64,000 bases of DNA, from NCBI GenBank assembly GCA_001942415.1, contig MKJX01000170.1:1-64000 (forward strand), given 5' to 3'. This document shows, piece after piece, positions 17,010 through 49,512 of this stretch. The DNA is from Pseudonocardia sp. CNS-139 (GTDB taxonomy: Bacteria; Actinomycetota; Actinomycetes; Mycobacteriales; Pseudonocardiaceae). The stretch's first letter is position 1, and every line of letters begins with the position of its first letter. The notes under the pieces are model-generated. The model was not told where the DNA came from and did no database searches. It saw only the letters and a program-made list of their open reading frames with translations. A program made the position numbers and the translations under genes.

Positions 17010-17933
17010 TCAGGCGTGCAGCAGCTCCACCACCGGCTCGAACGGCTCCTGGTAGGGCTCGTGGACCGTGACGAGCGTGAAGCCGTAGCGCTCGCGGCGC
17101 TCGCGCAGCTGCTCGGCCATCTGCTCGGGGGTGCCGATGAGCAGGAACGGCGTCTCCAGCACCTCGTCGACGCTCATGCGGCCGCCGAACCGGGTGCGCA
17201 GGTCGGTGGCGGCGGCCCGCCGGTCCGGGGCCGGCACCACGGCCTGGACCAGCAGGTTCCACTCGACGTCCGCGTTTCGCTCACCGGCCGCGGTCCGCGC
17301 GAAGGCCACCCGCTCGTCGGCCTCGGCCGCCGTCCCGATCCGGAACGTGCCCGGCGGCTGGCCGGGGATCTGGTAGACGCCCGCGACGCCGATGACGTCG
17401 GCGTGGCGGCCGGCGATCGTGAGGATGCGGTCGCCGGTGCCGCCGACGATCAGCGGCGGCCCGGAACCCCCGAACCCGACGTGCTGCACCGGCGCCGGCA
17501 CGCTCCCGTTCGGCAGCGCGGCCAGCTCCGTGGACAGGAACCGCTGCACGTCCGTGATCGTCTCCTCCAGCCGCTGCGCCCGCGCGCCGAACGGCTCCCA
17601 CGGGATGGCGGCCTTGTCGAACTCCCACTTCATGTGCCCGGCGCCGAGCCCGACGTCCAGCCGGCCGCCGGTGAGGACGTCGGTGGTGGCGATCTCGCGG
17701 GCGAGCAGCCCGGCGTTCCAGAACGGGGCGTTGAGCACGAGCGTGCCGACCCGGAGCCGCTCGGTCGCGTCGGCCGCGGCCACGAGCACCGGGAACGGGG
17801 CGGGCGCGCCGAGGTGGTCGGCCGCGAACAGGACGTCGAAGCCCACGCTCTCCAGGTGGCGGCAGCGTTCCCGGAACGCCTCCCGGGTCGGGATGCCGAA
17901 GACGTTGGTAGAGAACCGGAAGTCTCGGGTCAC
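17010..17933 (-). CDS. LLM-class (luciferase-like) F420-dependent oxidoreductase, TIGR03621-like
   Basis: This is a bacterial luciferase-like TIM barrel of 307 residues. It has FRFSTNVFGIPTREAF at the start, GFDVLFAADHLGAPAPFPVL, GGRLDVGLGAGHMKWEFD and TPEQMAEQLRERRERYGFT. The short form without an FMN-monooxygenase insertion fits the actinobacterial F420 subgroup, but the cofactor is inferred. GTG 17933 is preferred; GTG 17942 is an alternative. It lies 25 bases upstream of the binding protein on the same strand. It may thus head the transport operon and act on the imported compound. Confidence 0.82.
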   Translation of the reverse strand: MTRDFRFSTNVFGIPTREAFRERCRHLESVGFDVLFAADHLGAPAPFPVLVAAADATERLRVGTLVLNAPFWNAGLLAREIATTDVLTGGRLDVGLGAGHMKWEFDKAAIPWEPFGARAQRLEETITDVQRFLSTELAALPNGSVPAPVQHVGFGGSGPPLIVGGTGDRILTIAGRHADVIGVAGVYQIPGQPPGTFRIGTAAEADERVAFARTAAGERNADVEWNLLVQAVVPAPDRRAAATDLRTRFGGRMSVDEVLETPFLLIGTPEQMAEQLRERRERYGFTLVTVHEPYQEPFEPVVELLHA

Positions 17934-18116
17934 CTCGCCCACCCTGGCCACGCCACCACCGGGGGCACAACGGGTGTTCACCCCTGGCTGATCACCGCTC
18001 GTCATCGGGGGAGGCTGGTGGACGACCCGGTCGACCTGAACGGGCCGTGGCCGGCTGAACCTCAGGATTCGATATGCAAGAACTCTGGCCGACCGGCTTT
18101 TCCATGGACGGAATCG

Positions 18117-30944: not shown

Positions 30945-31314
30945 GAAGTCCTTTCCCGGGTCGGGGGCCGGACTACTATGCATGTTCGTAGCTGAACCTG
31001 CGCTGAGACGTCGCTGAGGGGGCGTTCTCTAAGGTCCGGCGGCCCGGGGTCGATCAGTTGCGCGCCGAGAATGGGGTGTGCCCCGGCCGCGCGCGAGACA
31101 TGGGTTGCCTTCGTGTCGTCCACCGGCAGCTTTCCGTCGGTGAGCTGTAGGCGGCCGGTGCTCCGGCGCGCCGGACGGACGCATTTCCGCCTGAGAGTCA
31201 CGTTTAACGGCGAAAGGACGACCCCAGTTACGTGCACATCGCCGAACTGCAGGTCGGAGCGGCCCGCAACGGCCGTTTCCGCCCCCGAACGGCGCATGCG
31301 AGGATCGCGCGGTG
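30945..31314. other. 370-bp gene-free spacer
   Basis: No convincing ORF is present. The sequence is less GC-rich than its surroundings near 30970-31000 (CTACTATGCATG...GTAG, a short inverted repeat just upstream of the acyltransferase) and again near 31200. Divergent promoters for the acyltransferase and the MerR gene are expected here. No terminator is needed, and none is seen. Confidence 0.5.
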
Positions 31315-31710
31315 ATGCAGATCGGCGAGGCCGCCTCCCGGGTGGGACTCTCGCTGCGGACGATCCGGCACTGGGACGAGGTCGGCCTCGTCGTGCCGTC
31401 GGAGCGGTCGGCCGGCGGGTTCCGCCTCTACACCGAGGCGGACATCGAGCGGCTGGCGCTCGTCAAGACGCTCAAGCCGCTGGACTTCAGCCTGGAGCAG
31501 ATGCGCGAGCTGCTCGACGCGATCGACGGCATGGAGTCCGACACCGGCGCCGACCCGGGGCGCACGGCCGAGCTCACCCGCCGGCTCGCGATGTACCGCG
31601 CCGCCGCCGAGGCGCGGGTGGAGGCGCTGCGCGCCCAGGTGCAGGGCCTGGAGCTGCTCTCCCGCCGGCTGCGCCACCTGGCGAACCACCACCCGGCCCG
31701 CCAGAGCTGA
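31315..31710 (+). CDS. MerR family transcriptional regulator
   Basis: This is a 131-residue MerR protein. The N-terminal HTH is MQIGEAASRVGLSLRTIRHW followed by DEVGLVVPSERSAGGFRLYT. A long coiled coil follows (ELTRRLAMYRAAAEARVEAL). No Cys cluster is present, so it is not a metal sensor of the classical type. The start is ATG 31315, with an alternative GTG one codon before it. It is followed by a 22-bp-periodic inverted array. Confidence 0.9.
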   Translation: MQIGEAASRVGLSLRTIRHWDEVGLVVPSERSAGGFRLYTEADIERLALVKTLKPLDFSLEQMRELLDAIDGMESDTGADPGRTAELTRRLAMYRAAAEARVEALRAQVQGLELLSRRLRHLANHHPARQS

Positions 31711-31722
31711 CCCGCTCCACCC

Positions 31723-31847
31723 CGACTCGCGCGCACCCAGGCCGCGACTCGCGTGCACTCACACCCCGACTCGCGGGGCGCGGAGCGCCCGTCCCGCGAG
31801 TCGCGCGAAAAGTGCACGCGAGTCGCGCTCTGGATGCACGCGAGTCG
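31723..31847. repeat. 22-bp-periodic inverted array (locus A), core CGACTCGCG
   Basis: Three direct copies of CGACTCGCGnGCAC or its CGACTCGCGGGG end variant start at 31723, 31745 and 31767, exactly 22 bases apart. After a short centre, three inverted copies follow: CCCGCGAGTCG at 31793, then GTGCACGCGAGTCG at 31812 and ATGCACGCGAGTCG at 31834. The last two are again 22 apart. The 8-base gaps between cores vary. The array would fold into a long stem in RNA or DNA. A second copy of the same plan is at 48366. Confidence 0.85.
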
Positions 31848-31952
31848 CGTCCGGCCCAGCCTGCTGCGCCGCTCGGCGCAATGCCCAGGTCGGGCCGGTG
31901 CCGGCGGCCGACGGCGGGGTGGGACGCGCCCGCCGCGTGCCAGGATTCGGCC

Positions 31953-34762
31953 ATGAGAGGCGCGGTCGTCGGCCGGGACGCGCTGTTCGACCGGGCCTGG
32001 ACCGCGCTCGCGGCGGCGGGCACGGTGCTCCTCGACGGTCCCGCCGCATCGGCAAGACCGCGCTGTGCCGCGCGCTCGTCGCCGCGGCCGAGCGCGCCGG
32101 GTGGCTCGTGCTCGCGTGCGCGCCGGCCGAGTCCGAGGTCGACCTCCCGTTCGCCGCCCTCGCCGACCTGCTGCGCCCGCTCACCCCGCAGGTGGCCGCG
32201 CTGCCCCGGCCGCAGCGCGCGGCCGCCGAGGCCGTGCTGCTCGCCTCCGACGCCGGCGAGCCGATCGACGAACGCGTGATCGGCGCCGCCACCTGCGCCC
32301 TCCTCGACGCCGCGGGTACCGGCCCGGCGCCCGTGCTGGTCGTCGTCGACGACGCGCCGTGGCTCGACCGGCCCAGCGAACGGGCGCTGCGGTTCGCGCT
32401 GCGCCGGGTGGCCCGCCCGACCGCCACGCTCGTGACGTGCCGGCGGGGTGACGCCGCGCCGGAGGACGTGCCGCTCGGCCTCGAACGCGCTCCCGCCGAC
32501 GCCCGCCTGGTCCGGATCGGGCTGGGCCCGCTCGGCGTCGGCGCCCTGCACCACATCCTGCGGGCCCGGCTCGGCACCACGTTCGGCCGGCCGCTGCTCG
32601 GCCGCATCGCGCGCGAGGCGGGCGGCAACCCGCTGCTGGCGATCGAGCTGGCCCGTTCGGTGCTGCGGCTGCCGCGCCCGCCGTCGCCGGGGGAGGACCT
32701 GCCCGCCGCGGCGTCCATGCACCGGCTCGTCGCCGACGCGCTCGCGACGCTCCCGCCGGCCGGCCGCGCGGCCGTCCGCACCGCGTCGCTGCTCGCCACG
32801 CCGACGCTGCGCGACCTCGCCGCCGCCGGCGCCGACCCGGCGGACTTCGAGCCCGCGGAGGAGGCCGGGCTGCTCACCGTGACGCCGGCCGCGGTCGCGT
32901 TCGCGCACCCCGTGTACGCCTCGACCGTGCGCGCGGGCATCCCGGCGGGCGTGCGGCGGCGCCTGCACCGGACGCTGGCCGGCGTCGTCGCCGACCCGGA
33001 CGAGCGGGCCCGCCACCTGCGCGCTCTGCACCACCGACCCGGACGCTCTGCACCACCGACCCGGACGCGCGACCGCGCGCACCCTCGCCGACGCGGCCGC
33101 GCGCCAGCACACCCGGGGCGCGCCGGAGTCGGCCGCGCAGCTCTACGAGCGGGCCGCGCAGCTCACGCCCCCGGACGACCCGGACGGGCTGGGCCGCGCC
33201 GGCTCGCCGCCGCGCAGTGCCGCTTCGACAGCGGCGACTACGCGGCCGCCCGGGCCGCCGCCACGGCCGCGGCCGCCGAGCTGACCGGCGACCTGCGCGC
33301 CGAGTCGCTGCTGCTCGCGGCCATCGTCGCGTGGAGCACCGACGAGTCCGGCGACGCGGCGGTCGACGCGGCCGAGGGCGCGCTGGCCGCCGTCGCGCCC
33401 GGGGCGCCGCTCGCCGGGCGCATCCACGCCTACCTCGCCATGTTCCGGGACGCCCCCGGCCGGGCCCGCGCCCACGCCGAGGCCGCCGCGACGCTGCTCG
33501 ACGGCCGTCCCGGCGACCGGCCGCTGCTCGCCGCCGCCCTGTTGCAGCTCTTCTTCAACGAGGTGCGGGCGGGCCTGCCGGCCCGCACCGAGCTGCTCGA
33601 CCGCGCGCTCGCGATGGAGGGCGACGAGCCGTCGTGGCTGGCCGGGACCGTGCCCGCGATCTGGTGGAAGGCGATCGACGCGCCCGACCGCGCCCGCGAG
33701 CGGCTGGAGTGGATGCTCGGGCGGGCCGTCGCGCGCGGCGACGAGCCGTCCCAGCACGAGCTGCTCAGCCACCTCGGCGAGGCCGAGCTGCTGGCCGGGC
33801 GCTTCCCGGCGGCCGAGCGGCACATCGCGGCGGCCCGCGAGCTGGGGGAGCAGCTCGGCACCGGGCTGGCCGGCGAGACGTGGCTGGCCGGCCTGCTCGA
33901 CGCGCACCGCGGCCGGCTCGCCGAGGCCGACGCGGTCGCGCGGGCCGGGCTGCGCCGGGCCGACGAGCTGCGCGACCACTGGCTGCGGCGGATCAACCAG
34001 CACCTGGCGGCGTTCGTCGCGCTGTCGGCCGGCCGGATGGCCGAGGCGGCCGCCGCGTACGGCGCGCTCGCGGCCACCGTCGACGCGATGGGCCTGGTCG
34101 AGCCGCTCGCCCAGCGTTTCGAGCCGGACTGGGTGGAGGCGTGCGTCGCGCCGGGGACGTCGCGGGGGCGGTCGCCGGACTGGAGCGGCTGACCGCCCGG
34201 CACGCCCGCCTGCCCCGCCCCTGGACGCGCTGGGCATGGCGCGCAGCCGGGCCCTGATCGCCGGCGCCACCGGTGCCGACCCACGCCCGCGCTGGCCGAG
34301 CTGGACGCGGCCCGGGCCGCGGTGCCCGCCGGGATCCTCCCGCTCGACCGCGCGCGCTGCCTGCTCGTCGCCGGCATGGTGCACCGCAGGGCCCGGCGCA
34401 AGGTCGCGGCCCGCGACGCGCTGGTCGCGGCCGTGGCCGAGCTCGACGCCGTCGGCGCGGCCGCGTTCGCGGAGCGGGCCCGCGCCGAGCTGGCGCGCGT
34501 CGGGGTGCGCGCCGCGGCGCCGTCGCCGGAGCTGACCCCGACCGAGGAGCGCGTCGCCCGCCTGGCCGCGAGCGGGCGCACCGGCCGGGCGATCGCCGAC
34601 GAGCTGTTCATCAGCCCGAAGACCGTCGAGGCCAACCTCACCCGCGTCTACCGCAAGCTCGGGATCTCCAGCCGGGCCGAGCTGGGCGGCGCGATGGCCC
34701 GGCTGCCGGCGCCCGTCACGCCCGGCAGATCGGCACGTCCGGATGCACCACGTAGCGGCTGA
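31953..34762 (+). CDS. LuxR-type large ATP-binding regulator (LAL-like), several frame breaks
   Basis: This is a regulator of about 930 residues with an N-terminal AAA/NACHT-like ATPase and a C-terminal LuxR helix-turn-helix. Start MRGAVVGRDALFDRAWTAL leads to the P-loop DGPAGIGKTAL (restored by one G near 32045). VLVVVDDAPWLDRPSERALR is Walker B and AREAGGNPLLAIELAR the STAND signature. A tetratricopeptide-like helical middle follows. The HTH is LTPTEERVARLAASGRTGRA then FISPKTVEANLTRVYRKLGI. A 22-bp tandem duplication at 33022 plus single losses near 33200, 34150, 34225 and 34280 break the frame. It ends over the convergent secreted-protein gene. Confidence 0.8.
33022..33065 (+). repeat. 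exact 22-bp tandem duplication inside the LuxR-type gene
   Basis: Bases 33022-33043 are repeated at 33044-33065. Twenty-two is not a multiple of three, and the reading frame after the duplication (TLADAAARQHTRGAPESAAQ) fits the frame before it if one copy is removed. It is either a recent slippage mutation that inactivates the gene or an assembly artefact. Confidence 0.8.
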
Positions 34763-46490: not shown

Positions 46491-47122
46491 CCCGGCCCGC
46501 GCCGACCCTGCGGACGTACGCGTTCGTCGACCGGATGCAGCCGCAGTGCGCCGCGCACATCGCCGCCACCAGCCCGGGCGACGTGCCGCTCGCCGGCATG
46601 GCCGAGCTGTACATCGAGATGGCGCCGGGCAACGAGGTCTTCCGGGCCGCCGACATCGCGCTGAAGGCCGCCGGGGTGCGCCCGGCGCTGCAGATCATCG
46701 AGCGCGAGTTCGGGCTGCTGGAGATCCACTCCGAGCAGCAGGCCGAGGTGCTCGCGTCCGGCCAGGCGATCCTCGACGAGCTGGGCATGACCGAGGCCGA
46801 CCGGATCAAACCGGTGATCGCGTCGACCCAGTTCATCACCAACGTGCACGCCTACCAGGCGCAGCTGCTCAACAAGTGGCGCAAGGGCTCGATGCTCATG
46901 CCGGGACAGAGCCTGTTCGTCATGGAGGTCGCGCCCGCGGCCTACATCGCGATCGCCGCCAACGAGGCCGAGAAGGCCGCGAACATCACCGTGATCGAGC
47001 TGCGGGCCGTCGGCCGGTTCGGGCGGATGTTCCTGTCCGGCAGCGAGAGCGAGGTGCAGTCCGCCCGCGACGCCGCCGTCGCCGCGCTGGAGGGCGTGCA
47101 CGGGCGGGAGGACCGGCGATGA
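46487..47122 (+). CDS. microcompartment trimer shell protein, BMC-T (RMM-like)
   Basis: This is a tandem BMC-domain protein of 211 residues that forms pseudohexameric trimers, often gated. TYAFVDRMQPQCAAHIAATS and AELYIEMAPGNEVFRAADIA match the BMC-T of actinobacterial RMM loci. IHSEQQAEVLASGQAILDEL and VMEVAPAAYIAIAANEAEKA begin the second half. Intact. It overlaps the malate dehydrogenase gene (ATGA). Confidence 0.92.
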   Translation: MTRPAPTLRTYAFVDRMQPQCAAHIAATSPGDVPLAGMAELYIEMAPGNEVFRAADIALKAAGVRPALQIIEREFGLLEIHSEQQAEVLASGQAILDELGMTEADRIKPVIASTQFITNVHAYQAQLLNKWRKGSMLMPGQSLFVMEVAPAAYIAIAANEAEKAANITVIELRAVGRFGRMFLSGSESEVQSARDAAVAALEGVHGREDRR

Positions 47123-48354
47123 CCGTGTGGGGTGCGGCGGCCGTCGACGGCGCGGCCGCCGCCGGGACGCTCCGCGTCGGTCTCCGGGACGTCGTCACGC
47201 CGCTGGCCCGGGAACGGGCCCGGGAGCTGGGGGTGGAGATCGTCGTCGGCGCGCCCGAGCCGCCGCGGGAGCCGGCGCCCGTGCCGCCGCCGAGCCCCCT
47301 GGCCGCGGCCGGCCCCGCCTCGCCCGTGCGCCGGATGCGGCCGCCGTCCGGGGCGCTGTTCCGGCGGGGTGCCCCGCTGCCGGACGCCGTGCGGCCGGGT
47401 GTGGCCCCGGATGCGCGCGACAGCGGCCGGGTGGTCGTCGTGGGCGCCGGCAACGTCGGGACTGTCGCGGCGCTGCGGCTGGCCGAGTCCGACGTGTTCA
47501 CCGAGGTCGTGCTGGTGGACGTCGACGAGGGCCGCGCCGCGGGCGTCGCGCTGGACCTCGCGCACGCCGCCGCGCTGAGCGGCTTCGGCACCCGGGTGCG
47601 CGGCGCCGGCACCGTCGAGGCGGCGGGGGAGGCCGACTTCGTCGTGGTCACCGCGGGCCGCCCGCGTCAGCCCGGGATGAGTCGGTCGGACCTGATCAGC
47701 ACGAACGCCGCGATCGTCGGCGACGTCGCCCGGCGGGTCGCGGCCACCTCGCCGCGCGCCGTGATCGTCGTGGTGACCAACCCGCTCGACGAGATGACCC
47801 AGCACGCCTGGACGTCCTCGGGCTTCCCCGCCGAACGCGTGCTCGGCATGGCCGGCGTGCTCGACACGGCCCGGTTCCAGGCGCTCACCGCGCTCACCGG
47901 GGTGGCCCGCGCCGACCGCGTCGCGGCGTGGGCGCTGGGCAGCCACGGCGAGGAGATGGTCATCCCGCTGTCGCAGGCCAGCGCCGACGGGCGGCCGCTG
48001 CCGGCCGTCCTGCCCGGCCCGCAGCTCGACGCGATCGTCGACCGGGCCCGCGGGTCCGGCGCCGAGGTCGTCGGGCTGCTGCGCTCGGGCAGCGCGTTCC
48101 TGGCGCCGGGGCTGTCCGCGGCGCGGATGGTGCTGGCGATGGCCGCCGACAGCGGCGAGGTCATGCCGGCCGCGGTGCTGGCCGACGGCAGCTACGGCAT
48201 CCGCGACGTCTACGTCGGGCTCCCGGCGCGGCTCGGGCGGGGCGGGGTGCGCGGGATCGTCGAGCTGGACCTGCGTCCCGACGAGCTGACCGCCCTCCGC
48301 GCCGCCGCCGACCGGATCCGCGAGCGCCTGGCCGGCCTCGCGTCCGTCGCGTGA
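47119..48354 (+). CDS. malate dehydrogenase-like enzyme with N-terminal domain and Pro/Ala linker (candidate lumen enzyme)
   Basis: This protein is 411 residues, about 100 longer than a normal LDH/MDH. Residues 17-44 (LRVGLRDVVTPLARERAREL) form a small compact unit. Residues 45-100 are a Pro/Ala/Arg-rich linker. The NAD domain begins near 104 (RVVVVGAGNVGTVAALRLAE). The substrate loop GRPRQPGMSRSDLI is malate-dehydrogenase type, and GMAGVLDTARF and GSHGEEMVIPLSQ (catalytic His) follow. It sits inside the shell operon. Such a head plus linker is how lumen enzymes are often recruited, so it may recycle NADH inside the compartment. Confidence 0.85.
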   Translation: MTVWGAAAVDGAAAAGTLRVGLRDVVTPLARERARELGVEIVVGAPEPPREPAPVPPPSPLAAAGPASPVRRMRPPSGALFRRGAPLPDAVRPGVAPDARDSGRVVVVGAGNVGTVAALRLAESDVFTEVVLVDVDEGRAAGVALDLAHAAALSGFGTRVRGAGTVEAAGEADFVVVTAGRPRQPGMSRSDLISTNAAIVGDVARRVAATSPRAVIVVVTNPLDEMTQHAWTSSGFPAERVLGMAGVLDTARFQALTALTGVARADRVAAWALGSHGEEMVIPLSQASADGRPLPAVLPGPQLDAIVDRARGSGAEVVGLLRSGSAFLAPGLSAARMVLAMAADSGEVMPAAVLADGSYGIRDVYVGLPARLGRGGVRGIVELDLRPDELTALRAAADRIRERLAGLASVA

Positions 48355-48365
48355 CCGCGCCCGCG

Positions 48366-48459
48366 CGACTCGCGCGCACAAATCCAGCGACTCGCGGGGA
48401 CAGGCCCGCGAGTCGCCGGAAAAGTGCGCGCGAGTCGCCGGAAAAGTGCGCGCGAGTCG
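48366..48459. repeat. 22-bp-periodic inverted array (locus B), core CGACTCGCG
   Basis: Two direct units, CGACTCGCGCGCAC (48366) and CGACTCGCGGGG (48388), are followed by inverted CCCGCGAGTCG (48405), GTGCGCGCGAGTCG (48424) and GTGCGCGCGAGTCG (48446). Spacings are 22, then 19 and 22, the same as at locus A (31723-31847). GAAAAGTGC before an inverted unit is also shared between the loci. It fills the gap between the malate and alcohol dehydrogenase genes. Confidence 0.85.
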
Positions 48460-48481: not shown

Positions 48482-49512
48482 GTGAAGGCCGTGGTGTTCG
48501 CCGGGGACGGGCAGGTGCGGGTCGCGTCGGTGCCGGAACCGCAGGTGGTGGACCCGGGGGACGCGGTCGTGCGGGTTCGCCGGGCCGCCGTGTGCGGCAC
48601 CGACCTGCACCTCGTCGCGCACGCCGGGGACCTGCCCGTCGGGACGGTGCTCGGGCACGAGTTCGCCGGCGAGGTCGCCGCGGTCGGCCCGGGCGTGCGC
48701 ACGCACGCCGTCGGCGACCTGGTGGCCGGCGCCGACTTCACCGCGTGCGGGACGTGCTGGTGGTGCCGGCGCGGCGACCACTGGGAGTGCGCGCAGCGGC
48801 GGTTCTTCGGGACGGGGCCGGCGTTCGGGCCCCCGCTCGCCGGCGCGCAGGCCGAGCTGGTGCGGGTCCCGTTCGCCGACACCGCACTGCGCCCGGTGCC
48901 GGACGGGGTCGGGCTCGACGCGGCGGTGTTCCTCGGCGACACCCTCGCCACCGGCTACGCCGCGGTGCGCCGGGCGGGGCCGCGCCCGGGGACACCGTCG
49001 CGGTGCTGGGCGGCGGGCCGGTCGGGCAGCTCACGAGCCTCGCCGCGCAGGCGTGCGGCGCCGGGGTCGTGATCGTGGTGGAGCCGGTCGCCCAACGTCG
49101 CGCGCTGGCCGCGCGCGAGGGCGCGCTCGCCGCCGAGCCCGCCGCGGCGCGGGCGCTCGTCGACGGCGTGACCGACGGCCGCGGCGCCGACGCGGTGGTC
49201 GACGCCGTCGGCGGGACGCGCGGGCTGGACGCCGCGTTCGCGCTGGTCCGGCGCCGCGGCACGGTCGTGTCCGTGGGCGTGCACACCGAGCCGTGGACGC
49301 TGCCCGCCGACCGGGCGTTCGCCGGGGAGCTGACGCTGCGGTTCGCGATCGGCGACCTGGCGCGCGACGGCGACGCGCTCGTGGCGCTCGTCCGCTCCCG
49401 GGCGCTGGACCCGGCCGTCGTCGCGTCGGAGACGGTGCCGCTCGACGCGGTGCCCGACGCGTACCGGCGGATGGCGGATCGCCGTACGCTCAAGTCCCTC
49501 ATCGCGACGTAG
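48482..49512 (+). CDS. zinc-dependent alcohol dehydrogenase (MDR family)
   Basis: This is a medium-chain dehydrogenase of about 343 residues. Catalytic zinc ligands are in VCGTDLHLV and GHEFAGEV. The structural zinc lobe has CGTCWWCRRGDHWEC. The Rossmann motif is VAVLGGGPVGQLTS. One base is missing near 48985 (AGLRPGDT). The start is GTG 48482, immediately after the repeat array. Within the microcompartment group it should reduce the aldehyde to an alcohol, or oxidise the primary alcohol, to balance NADH. Confidence 0.87.

Follow-up and report, generated by a model that had tools for sequence, protein, structure and literature searches.

The analysed window is a stretch of 64,000 nucleotides from Pseudonocardia sp. 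CNS-139 (contig MKJX01000170.1), and it contains two arrays, A and B, in which a short core, CGACTCGCG, is repeated first on one strand and then, beyond a short centre, on the other (Table 1). A preliminary description of this DNA had claimed three direct and three inverted copies at exact 22-bp steps for array A, and the coordinates bear this out exactly; a second locus, B, holds two forward and three reverse copies. The repeated core, which was given there as 12 to 14 bp, is real, but the part common to other species is 9 bp, and the claimed nGCAC extension belongs to the spacers of CNS-139 and not to the shared core. Array A begins 12 nt past the stop codon (31708-31710) of a gene for a MerR-family regulator, and array B begins 11 nt past the stop of a lactate/malate dehydrogenase-like gene. 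Downstream of array A, the AAA-like match and the GerE domain of a LuxR-type regulator fall in separate open reading frames, in several frames, which suggests frameshifts in the gene or in the assembly. The zinc-binding dehydrogenase downstream of array B (48482-49512) was called as a C-terminal open reading frame only, and its N-terminal part seems to lie in another frame. A search of the window against Rfam gave no match at gathering score. The number of copies of the core 9-mer in the window is by itself unremarkable (14 versus 8.1 expected), 14 being reached in 6 of 100 shuffles.

Table 1. Arrays A and B and the genes that flank them (positions in the window)
Feature	Positions	Strand	Remarks
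MerR-family regulator gene	31312-31710	+	ORF; Pfam MerR_1, E 1.8e-19
Array A, left arm	31723-31775	+	CGACTCGCG at 31723-31731, 31745-31753, 31767-31775; exact 22-bp steps
Array A, centre	31776-31794	.	19 nt; G-rich, then C-rich
Array A, right arm	31795-31847	-	inverted CGACTCGCG at 31795-31803, 31817-31825, 31839-31847
LuxR-type regulator region	31898-34762	+	downstream of array A, co-directional; weak AAA-like match, GerE domain
Lactate/malate dehydrogenase-like gene	47119-48354	+	Pfam Ldh_1_N, E 1.1e-37
Array B, left arm	48366-48396	+	2 direct cores
Array B, centre	48397-48406	.	10 nt
Array B, right arm	48407-48459	-	3 inverted cores

Across the host genome (G000; 7.1 Mb in 250 contigs, 78.5% complete), a scan at 22-bp spacing returned 335 exact pairs of the core (168 + 167) and a reversed control pattern returned none, so the array is not confined to loci A and B. 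When consecutive exact cores 14 to 30 bp apart were tallied, the step was 22 bp in 475 of 484 cases, 21 bp in six, 23 bp in two, and 24 bp in one. This spacing is fixed even though adjacent spacers differ at a mean of 2.55 of their 13 positions (727 differences in 285 pairs). Four contigs of the assembly (C49, C67, C70, and C73) begin with arrays, which may be able to break short-read assemblies.

The most informative spacer position in a unit profile of 19 species groups is position 17 (0.98 bit), where A has a mean frequency of 0.79 across those groups; loci L122, L125, and L137 are absent from the groups used for the spacer, profile, and stop-distance statistics. The 68 distinct spacers of CNS-139 carry 53 A and 15 T at this position, and eight loci of G124, a genome bearing a different core, yield 21 distinct spacers, 17 of which also have A there. 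Two of the 19 groups have another commonest base, mostly T in binC45 and G in S. yanglingensis. Since the A at position 17 is conserved across species, we write the putative site as the 22-bp unit CGACTCGCG-N7-A-N5. The core itself is only quasi-palindromic (CGA-C-TCG). Where two arms meet head to head in CNS-139, the gaps cluster at 9 to 10, 18 to 21, and 30 nt, with one cluster dominating and a best Rayleigh period near 10.5 to 11 (n = 20 listed); elsewhere they measure 19 to 23 nt, with two at 26, in G030 (n = 50 listed) and 5 nt where listed in G100, and phasing is borderline in G009 (n = 12). Helical phasing of these gaps is suggestive only.

Exact 22-bp pairs were found in 61 of 390 genomes of the family, spread over 11 of its 46 genera, and 39 of the 390 hold at least 10 such pairs, the top count besides CNS-139 being 286; in these totals related genomes were counted separately, as they were throughout. 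The arrays are thus neither restricted to two copies nor missing from related genomes, the outcome under which the preliminary description was to be given up. Among 60 relatives, the 25 with exact pairs were all Pseudonocardia; none occurred in 24 genomes belonging to different families within the order, and a sample of the phylum yielded single matches in 2 genomes besides CNS-139 (tallied 3 of 396). Named loci among the matches listed were assigned to Pseudonocardia in 94 of 108 cases, with 6 from Actinophytocola, 2 from Saccharothrix, 3 from Pseudonocardiales, and 1 each from Nocardioides, Planctomycetaceae, and Deltaproteobacteria; loci L031 to L138 were picked by a pattern with three direct copies, so that direct arrays are over-represented there. 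Two loci from outside the family, L075 and L110, look like unrelated near-identical tandem repeats; L110 (5692-5788), on a contig labelled Deltaproteobacteria, has the same core at 22 bp and units that are much alike, and it may be an unrelated minisatellite. In Nocardioides sp. zg-DK7169 (L039, 3035-3153), six near-identical 22-bp units with an CGCGAGTCG core stand between two predicted genes, which may reflect chance, transfer, or a parallel case. Two genomes kept as separate species and counted separately, G025 and G330, are 99.998% identical across 90 kb (L259-L268), and the pair is, at that identity, uninformative on recent evolution of the arrays.

Genomes without exact arrays can hold arrays of a related core. 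In 24 such genomes, searched with up to 2 mismatches and with the 22-bp step built into the pattern, matches exceeded those of the control in G124 (136 versus 1), G118 (53 versus 5), and G004 (69 versus 7). At most of the listed places the core is CGACACGCG in G124 and AGACTCGCG or GGACTCGCG in G004; the cores of G118 are mixed (CGACACGCG, CGACTCTCG, CGACTCACG, and CGACTCGCG). An independent pattern with the unlike core GGCGAGTTTGCC and any gap from 4 to 16 matched in 5 of the 62 genomes of the genus. Among the spacings listed, 22 bp accounted for 34 of 36 cases in G009, 24 of 25 in G336, 5 of 6 in G328, and 1 of 1 in G333, and 21 bp for all 7 cases in G006 and for the four remaining cases of the other genomes. 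Since GGCGAGTTTGCC arrays step by 22 or 21 bp, a spacing of nearly two helical turns is common to families with unlike cores. Other repeats were seen in genomes without CGACTCGCG arrays. G001 has a different array between convergent genes, with core TGCGGCAC, a period of about 20 bp, and both orientations (L167, around 633-792; L169, around 17836-17949), and G017 has GCTCACGTAATTCC repeats in both orientations, some of them 24 bp apart (L159, 17539-17620; L160, 1648-1690).

The positions of the arrays relative to gene 3' ends, a check proposed in the preliminary description, were determined with genes called by a home-made codon-usage finder, with L039, L075, and L110 excluded from the counts of gene context, and for CNS-139 in the stretches where arrays were listed. 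Arrays lie a median of 12 nt behind a stop codon in CNS-139 (n = 17) and 21.5 nt in other species (n = 126), and the median distance to a start codon is 124 nt (n = 17) and 99 nt (n = 62), respectively. Between tandem genes, 8 of 8 arrays in CNS-139 and 42 of 50 in other species occupy the half of the intergenic space nearer the upstream stop, and neither mean was reached in any of 20,000 simulations of uniform placement. The 123 arrays of other species comprise 37 in convergent, 52 in tandem, and 5 in divergent contexts, 10 inside predicted genes, and 19 at edges; compared with 69 convergent, 253 tandem, and 117 divergent control regions (P = 8e-9), divergent regions are avoided. The 20 arrays of CNS-139 (5 convergent, 7 tandem, 5 divergent, and 3 inside predicted genes) showed no significant bias of context relative to 35, 184, and 69 control regions (P = 0.08). 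Predicted genes are overlapped by 13 of 143 arrays in all, and no predicted stop lies within 60 nt of 10 of 26 arrays in CNS-139 and 28 of 120 elsewhere. Direct arrays beside exactly one stop present CGCGAGTCG first in 34 cases versus CGACTCGCG first in 13 in other species, and in 3 versus 1 in CNS-139. A search of the neighbourhoods for a partner gene gave no dominant family, any one family being shared by at most five species groups.

Turnover could be followed at single stop codons. The 3' end of ileS was classified in 58 of the 62 genomes of the genus, the other four being unreadable, contig-cut, or unfetched; 13 have a CGACTCGCG-type array, two have an GGCGAGTT array, 22 belong to the hairpin class (stem of 11 bp or longer, within 150 nt), and the remaining 21 have neither. 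Such stems accompany the array in 1 of 13 genomes versus 23 of 45 elsewhere (Fisher P = 0.009, with relatedness ignored), and their rarity where the array is present suggests that arrays may replace terminator-like hairpins at ileS. In at least three genomes of the hairpin class (G016, G015, and G325) the stem starts 74 to 103 nt in and is probably located inside the next gene. The replacement was not confirmed behind pepA, where 61 genomes gave 5 arrays, 9 hairpins, and 47 with neither (one of the 47 being unreadable). Species differ at both stops in whether they have an array. Several species carry near-perfect long palindromes a few nucleotides past the ileS stop, of an GTGAGTGGCGAT type and an GGAACGGCACTTTCCCGC type (L219, L220, L227, L231, and L232), which may be separate repeat families.

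Spacing by two helical turns, bases conserved across the unit, indifference to pairing (see below), and shifts of the core between species are what would be expected of sites for a cooperative protein. The reading that we favor, at a probability of roughly 0.45, is therefore that each array lines up binding sites for a single candidate sequence-specific DNA-binding protein of Pseudonocardia and its relatives, and most likely serves as a boundary at gene ends. Among the options that the preliminary description had offered, a protein-binding array is the best fit, as a candidate, by its fixed spacing and conserved bases. One site would be the 22-bp unit, which recurs at every second turn of the helix and so always faces the same side, and copies of the protein would sit side by side and cooperatively, by analogy with initiator proteins on plasmid iterons. 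The location of the arrays shortly after stop codons, for the most part between tandem or convergent genes and with room left before the next start, would fit a boundary or a roadblock terminator, in which the protein row stops RNA polymerase or insulates neighbouring genes and neither hairpin nor U-tract is needed. Counted against this reading are the lack of a binding protein or a dominant family among the neighbouring genes, the result at pepA, the patchy presence in 61 of 390 genomes, the 21 of 58 ileS ends with neither feature, the ileS stems that probably belong to the next gene, the P value of 0.08 for context in CNS-139, the arrays with no predicted stop within 60 nt, the spacer words shared between loci (see below), and the two groups in which another base outnumbers A at position 17. 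A stronger version, in which a lineage-specific roadblock system ends or insulates transcription by means of a candidate protein on two-turn arrays, and the specificity of the protein and its sites change together between species, appears unlikely as a whole; the co-changing site sets would be CGACTCGCG, CGACACGCG, AGACTCGCG, and perhaps GGCGAGTTTGCC.

The main rival to the protein-row reading is a selfish repeat tolerated at 3' ends, and it gains its weight from the spacers. In CNS-139, the 98 spacers of 27 loci form a small vocabulary, with spacer-end types that include TTTTCCGG, NAATCCAG, YCAGNSCS, and YCACRSCS mixed within arrays. Identical spacers account for 31 of 4,589 between-locus pairs, compared with a mean of 1.5 and a maximum of 6 after column shuffling, and allowing one difference raises the count to 202 pairs, versus 20 (maximum 40) after shuffling. 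Of 11 other species groups, all with at least 20 spacers, 7 have more between-locus identity than any of 100 shuffles; the bannensis, OFTM178/335, kujensis, and CNS004 groups do not. Identical spacers at dispersed loci imply that spacers were copied from locus to locus or that selection acted on whole words; the shared words suggest such copying, which fits a selfish element equally well. In that case the arrays would be an interspersed mosaic repeat resembling BIMEs and lacking a host function, the units of which are copied between loci by some activity and persist where they do little harm, behind stop codons, and the fixed spacing and core would reflect recognition by the copying enzyme. 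The presence or absence of an array at one and the same stop codon in different species favors such an element, and so does the position of the arrays, since REPs too typically follow coding regions and lie where genes converge or run in one direction (PMC3733652). The Y1 transposase PF01797 (RAYT), however, occurs in 5 of the 62 genomes of the genus and was not found in CNS-139 (78.5% complete), array A as a single query had no match in phages or plasmids (a search by which arrays with other spacers could be missed), and viral contigs contained no core pair. The MITE-like element entertained in the preliminary description thus has only dispersal in its favor, the one transposase family searched not being found in CNS-139. 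Moreover, the A at position 17 and the spacing of 21 to 22 bp with unlike cores are hard to account for without a constraint from DNA binding, and on balance we regard a selfish repeat as somewhat unlikely.

Alternatively, the arrays may have a role in DNA topology. By bending or wrapping the DNA they would draw gyrase, or a nucleoid protein, to the rear of transcribed genes, where positive supercoils would be absorbed; the same has been proposed for REPs at the 3' ends of genes. BIME-2 elements bind gyrase (PMC2817692), and the gyrase motif of Escherichia coli has a GC periodicity of 10.75 bp, with cleavage sites over-represented in BIME-2 (PMC6379681). Together with the gene-end placement of REPs, these reports leave room for a topological role, and the arrays have gene-end and convergent placement along with A/T at unit positions 3, 5, and 17, where an 11-bp component exceeds the 22-bp component in 14 of 17 species groups. 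Against it, a 7.3-bp component exceeds the 11-bp component in 10 of the 17, the fixed 9-bp core and the conservation of a single base point to direct base readout and not to a degenerate wrapping signal, and a differing core in related species would be unexpected if gyrase, which is conserved, were the partner. We consider this role improbable.

An element acting in RNA, either a bidirectional hairpin terminator or a structure that stabilises mRNA, is suggested by array A itself, which folds with z scores of -10.5 and -8.7 on its two strands. Inward and outward arrays in general fold strongly (median z, -6.2 to -8.1; n = 23, 10, 16, and 3), placement at gene ends would suit such an element, and 16 of 85 direct-only arrays of other species also fall below -2. 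The median of those 85, however, is -0.41, and that of the seven direct-only arrays of CNS-139, two of which fall below -2, is -0.81; G033 and G019 hold 177 and 188 direct pairs and merely 2 head-to-head pairs each. The preliminary description had asked for covariation of structure across copies, and locus-specific complementarity was seen neither in arm spacers nor in array centres. In CNS-139, paired arm spacers agree at 7.71 of 13 positions versus 7.62 for spacers of different arrays, and in four other groups the likeness was higher in two and lower in two; for the centres, the observed energy was reached by 34 of 300 shuffles in G030 and 216 of 300 in G000, so that complementarity is not clear. 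T-runs are nearly absent, TTTT occurring in 1 of 282 array flanks. The structured RNA or terminator of the preliminary description therefore holds for the folding of inverted arrays like A but not for the mostly unfolded direct-only arrays. An RNA hairpin was rejected as the general account, as was an intrinsic terminator in the usual sense of a GC-rich hairpin followed by a U-tract, and an RNA-level 3' element appears quite improbable.

Ordinary minisatellite-like tandem duplication of a chance sequence, which would account for adjacent units that are sometimes identical (25 of 108 within-locus pairs in kujensis), is scarcely credible given the same core in 11 genera, 727 spacer differences versus 9 deviations in spacing, the preservation of position 17 across species, and placement at gene ends.

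If the arrays are protein-bound boundaries at gene ends, they would represent a genome-wide bacterial alternative to hairpin terminators, and a single family would contain more than one instance of a regulator's sites having been rewritten as a set; were sites and protein to have evolved together, the cores would be a natural record of a DNA-binding protein changing along with all of its sites. A selfish origin would instead make them a BIME-like class of repeat that is unusually strict in its geometry and for which no mobiliser is known. In both cases they give these genomes a defined source of short repeats that is open to testing.

To our knowledge, no bacterial genome-wide system of such anatomy has been described. 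CRISPR arrays have direct repeats of approximately 21 to 48 bp with unique spacers between them; the arrays here have a 9-bp core, inverted halves, and 13-nt spacers that recur between loci (31 identical pairs), and the preliminary description was right that they do not look like CRISPR. Among titles and the beginnings of abstracts in the open-licence literature, none described these arrays, and papers containing the 9-mer had unrelated titles among the matches listed. REP units are palindromes of 20 to 40 bp, mostly tagged with GTAG or CGTC and in many cases accompanied by a RAYT transposase (PMC2817692, PMC3733652). The arrays resemble REPs and BIMEs in high copy number, extragenic position at 3' ends (13 of 143 overlap predicted genes), mosaic units, two orientations, and species-specific sequences. 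They differ in consisting of exactly spaced 22-bp sites and not of palindromic hairpin units, 69 of 85 direct-only arrays not falling below a z score of -2; the unit profile has no constant GTAG or CGTC tag, and a RAYT gene was not found in the CNS-139 assembly. The TAACTGA direct repeats of Beggiatoaceae lie mostly just upstream of start codons in the genome studied and were interpreted as post-transcriptional sites (PMC4679880). The present arrays are similar in that a short core with a putative binder is directly repeated in intergenic DNA across the genome, but they stand behind stop codons and not before start codons.

Iteron arrays are direct repeats in helical phase that lie at a replication origin and are bound by a Rep initiator; in plasmid R6K the iterons are 22 bp long and are bound by its initiator protein. 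The arrays described here may be likened to them in their helically phased direct repeats of about 22 bp (475 of 484 steps being exactly 22 bp), their conserved core, and the variable bases between cores. Unlike plasmid iterons, which occupy origins at one or a few places, they are scattered over many gene ends, and their second half is often inverted. Roadblock terminators such as the Sal boxes of rDNA and Tus-Ter are DNA sites, in some cases repeated, at which a protein is bound behind a gene or where a fork stops; the arrays may share with them being repeated DNA sites behind genes that are bound, here putatively, by a protein.
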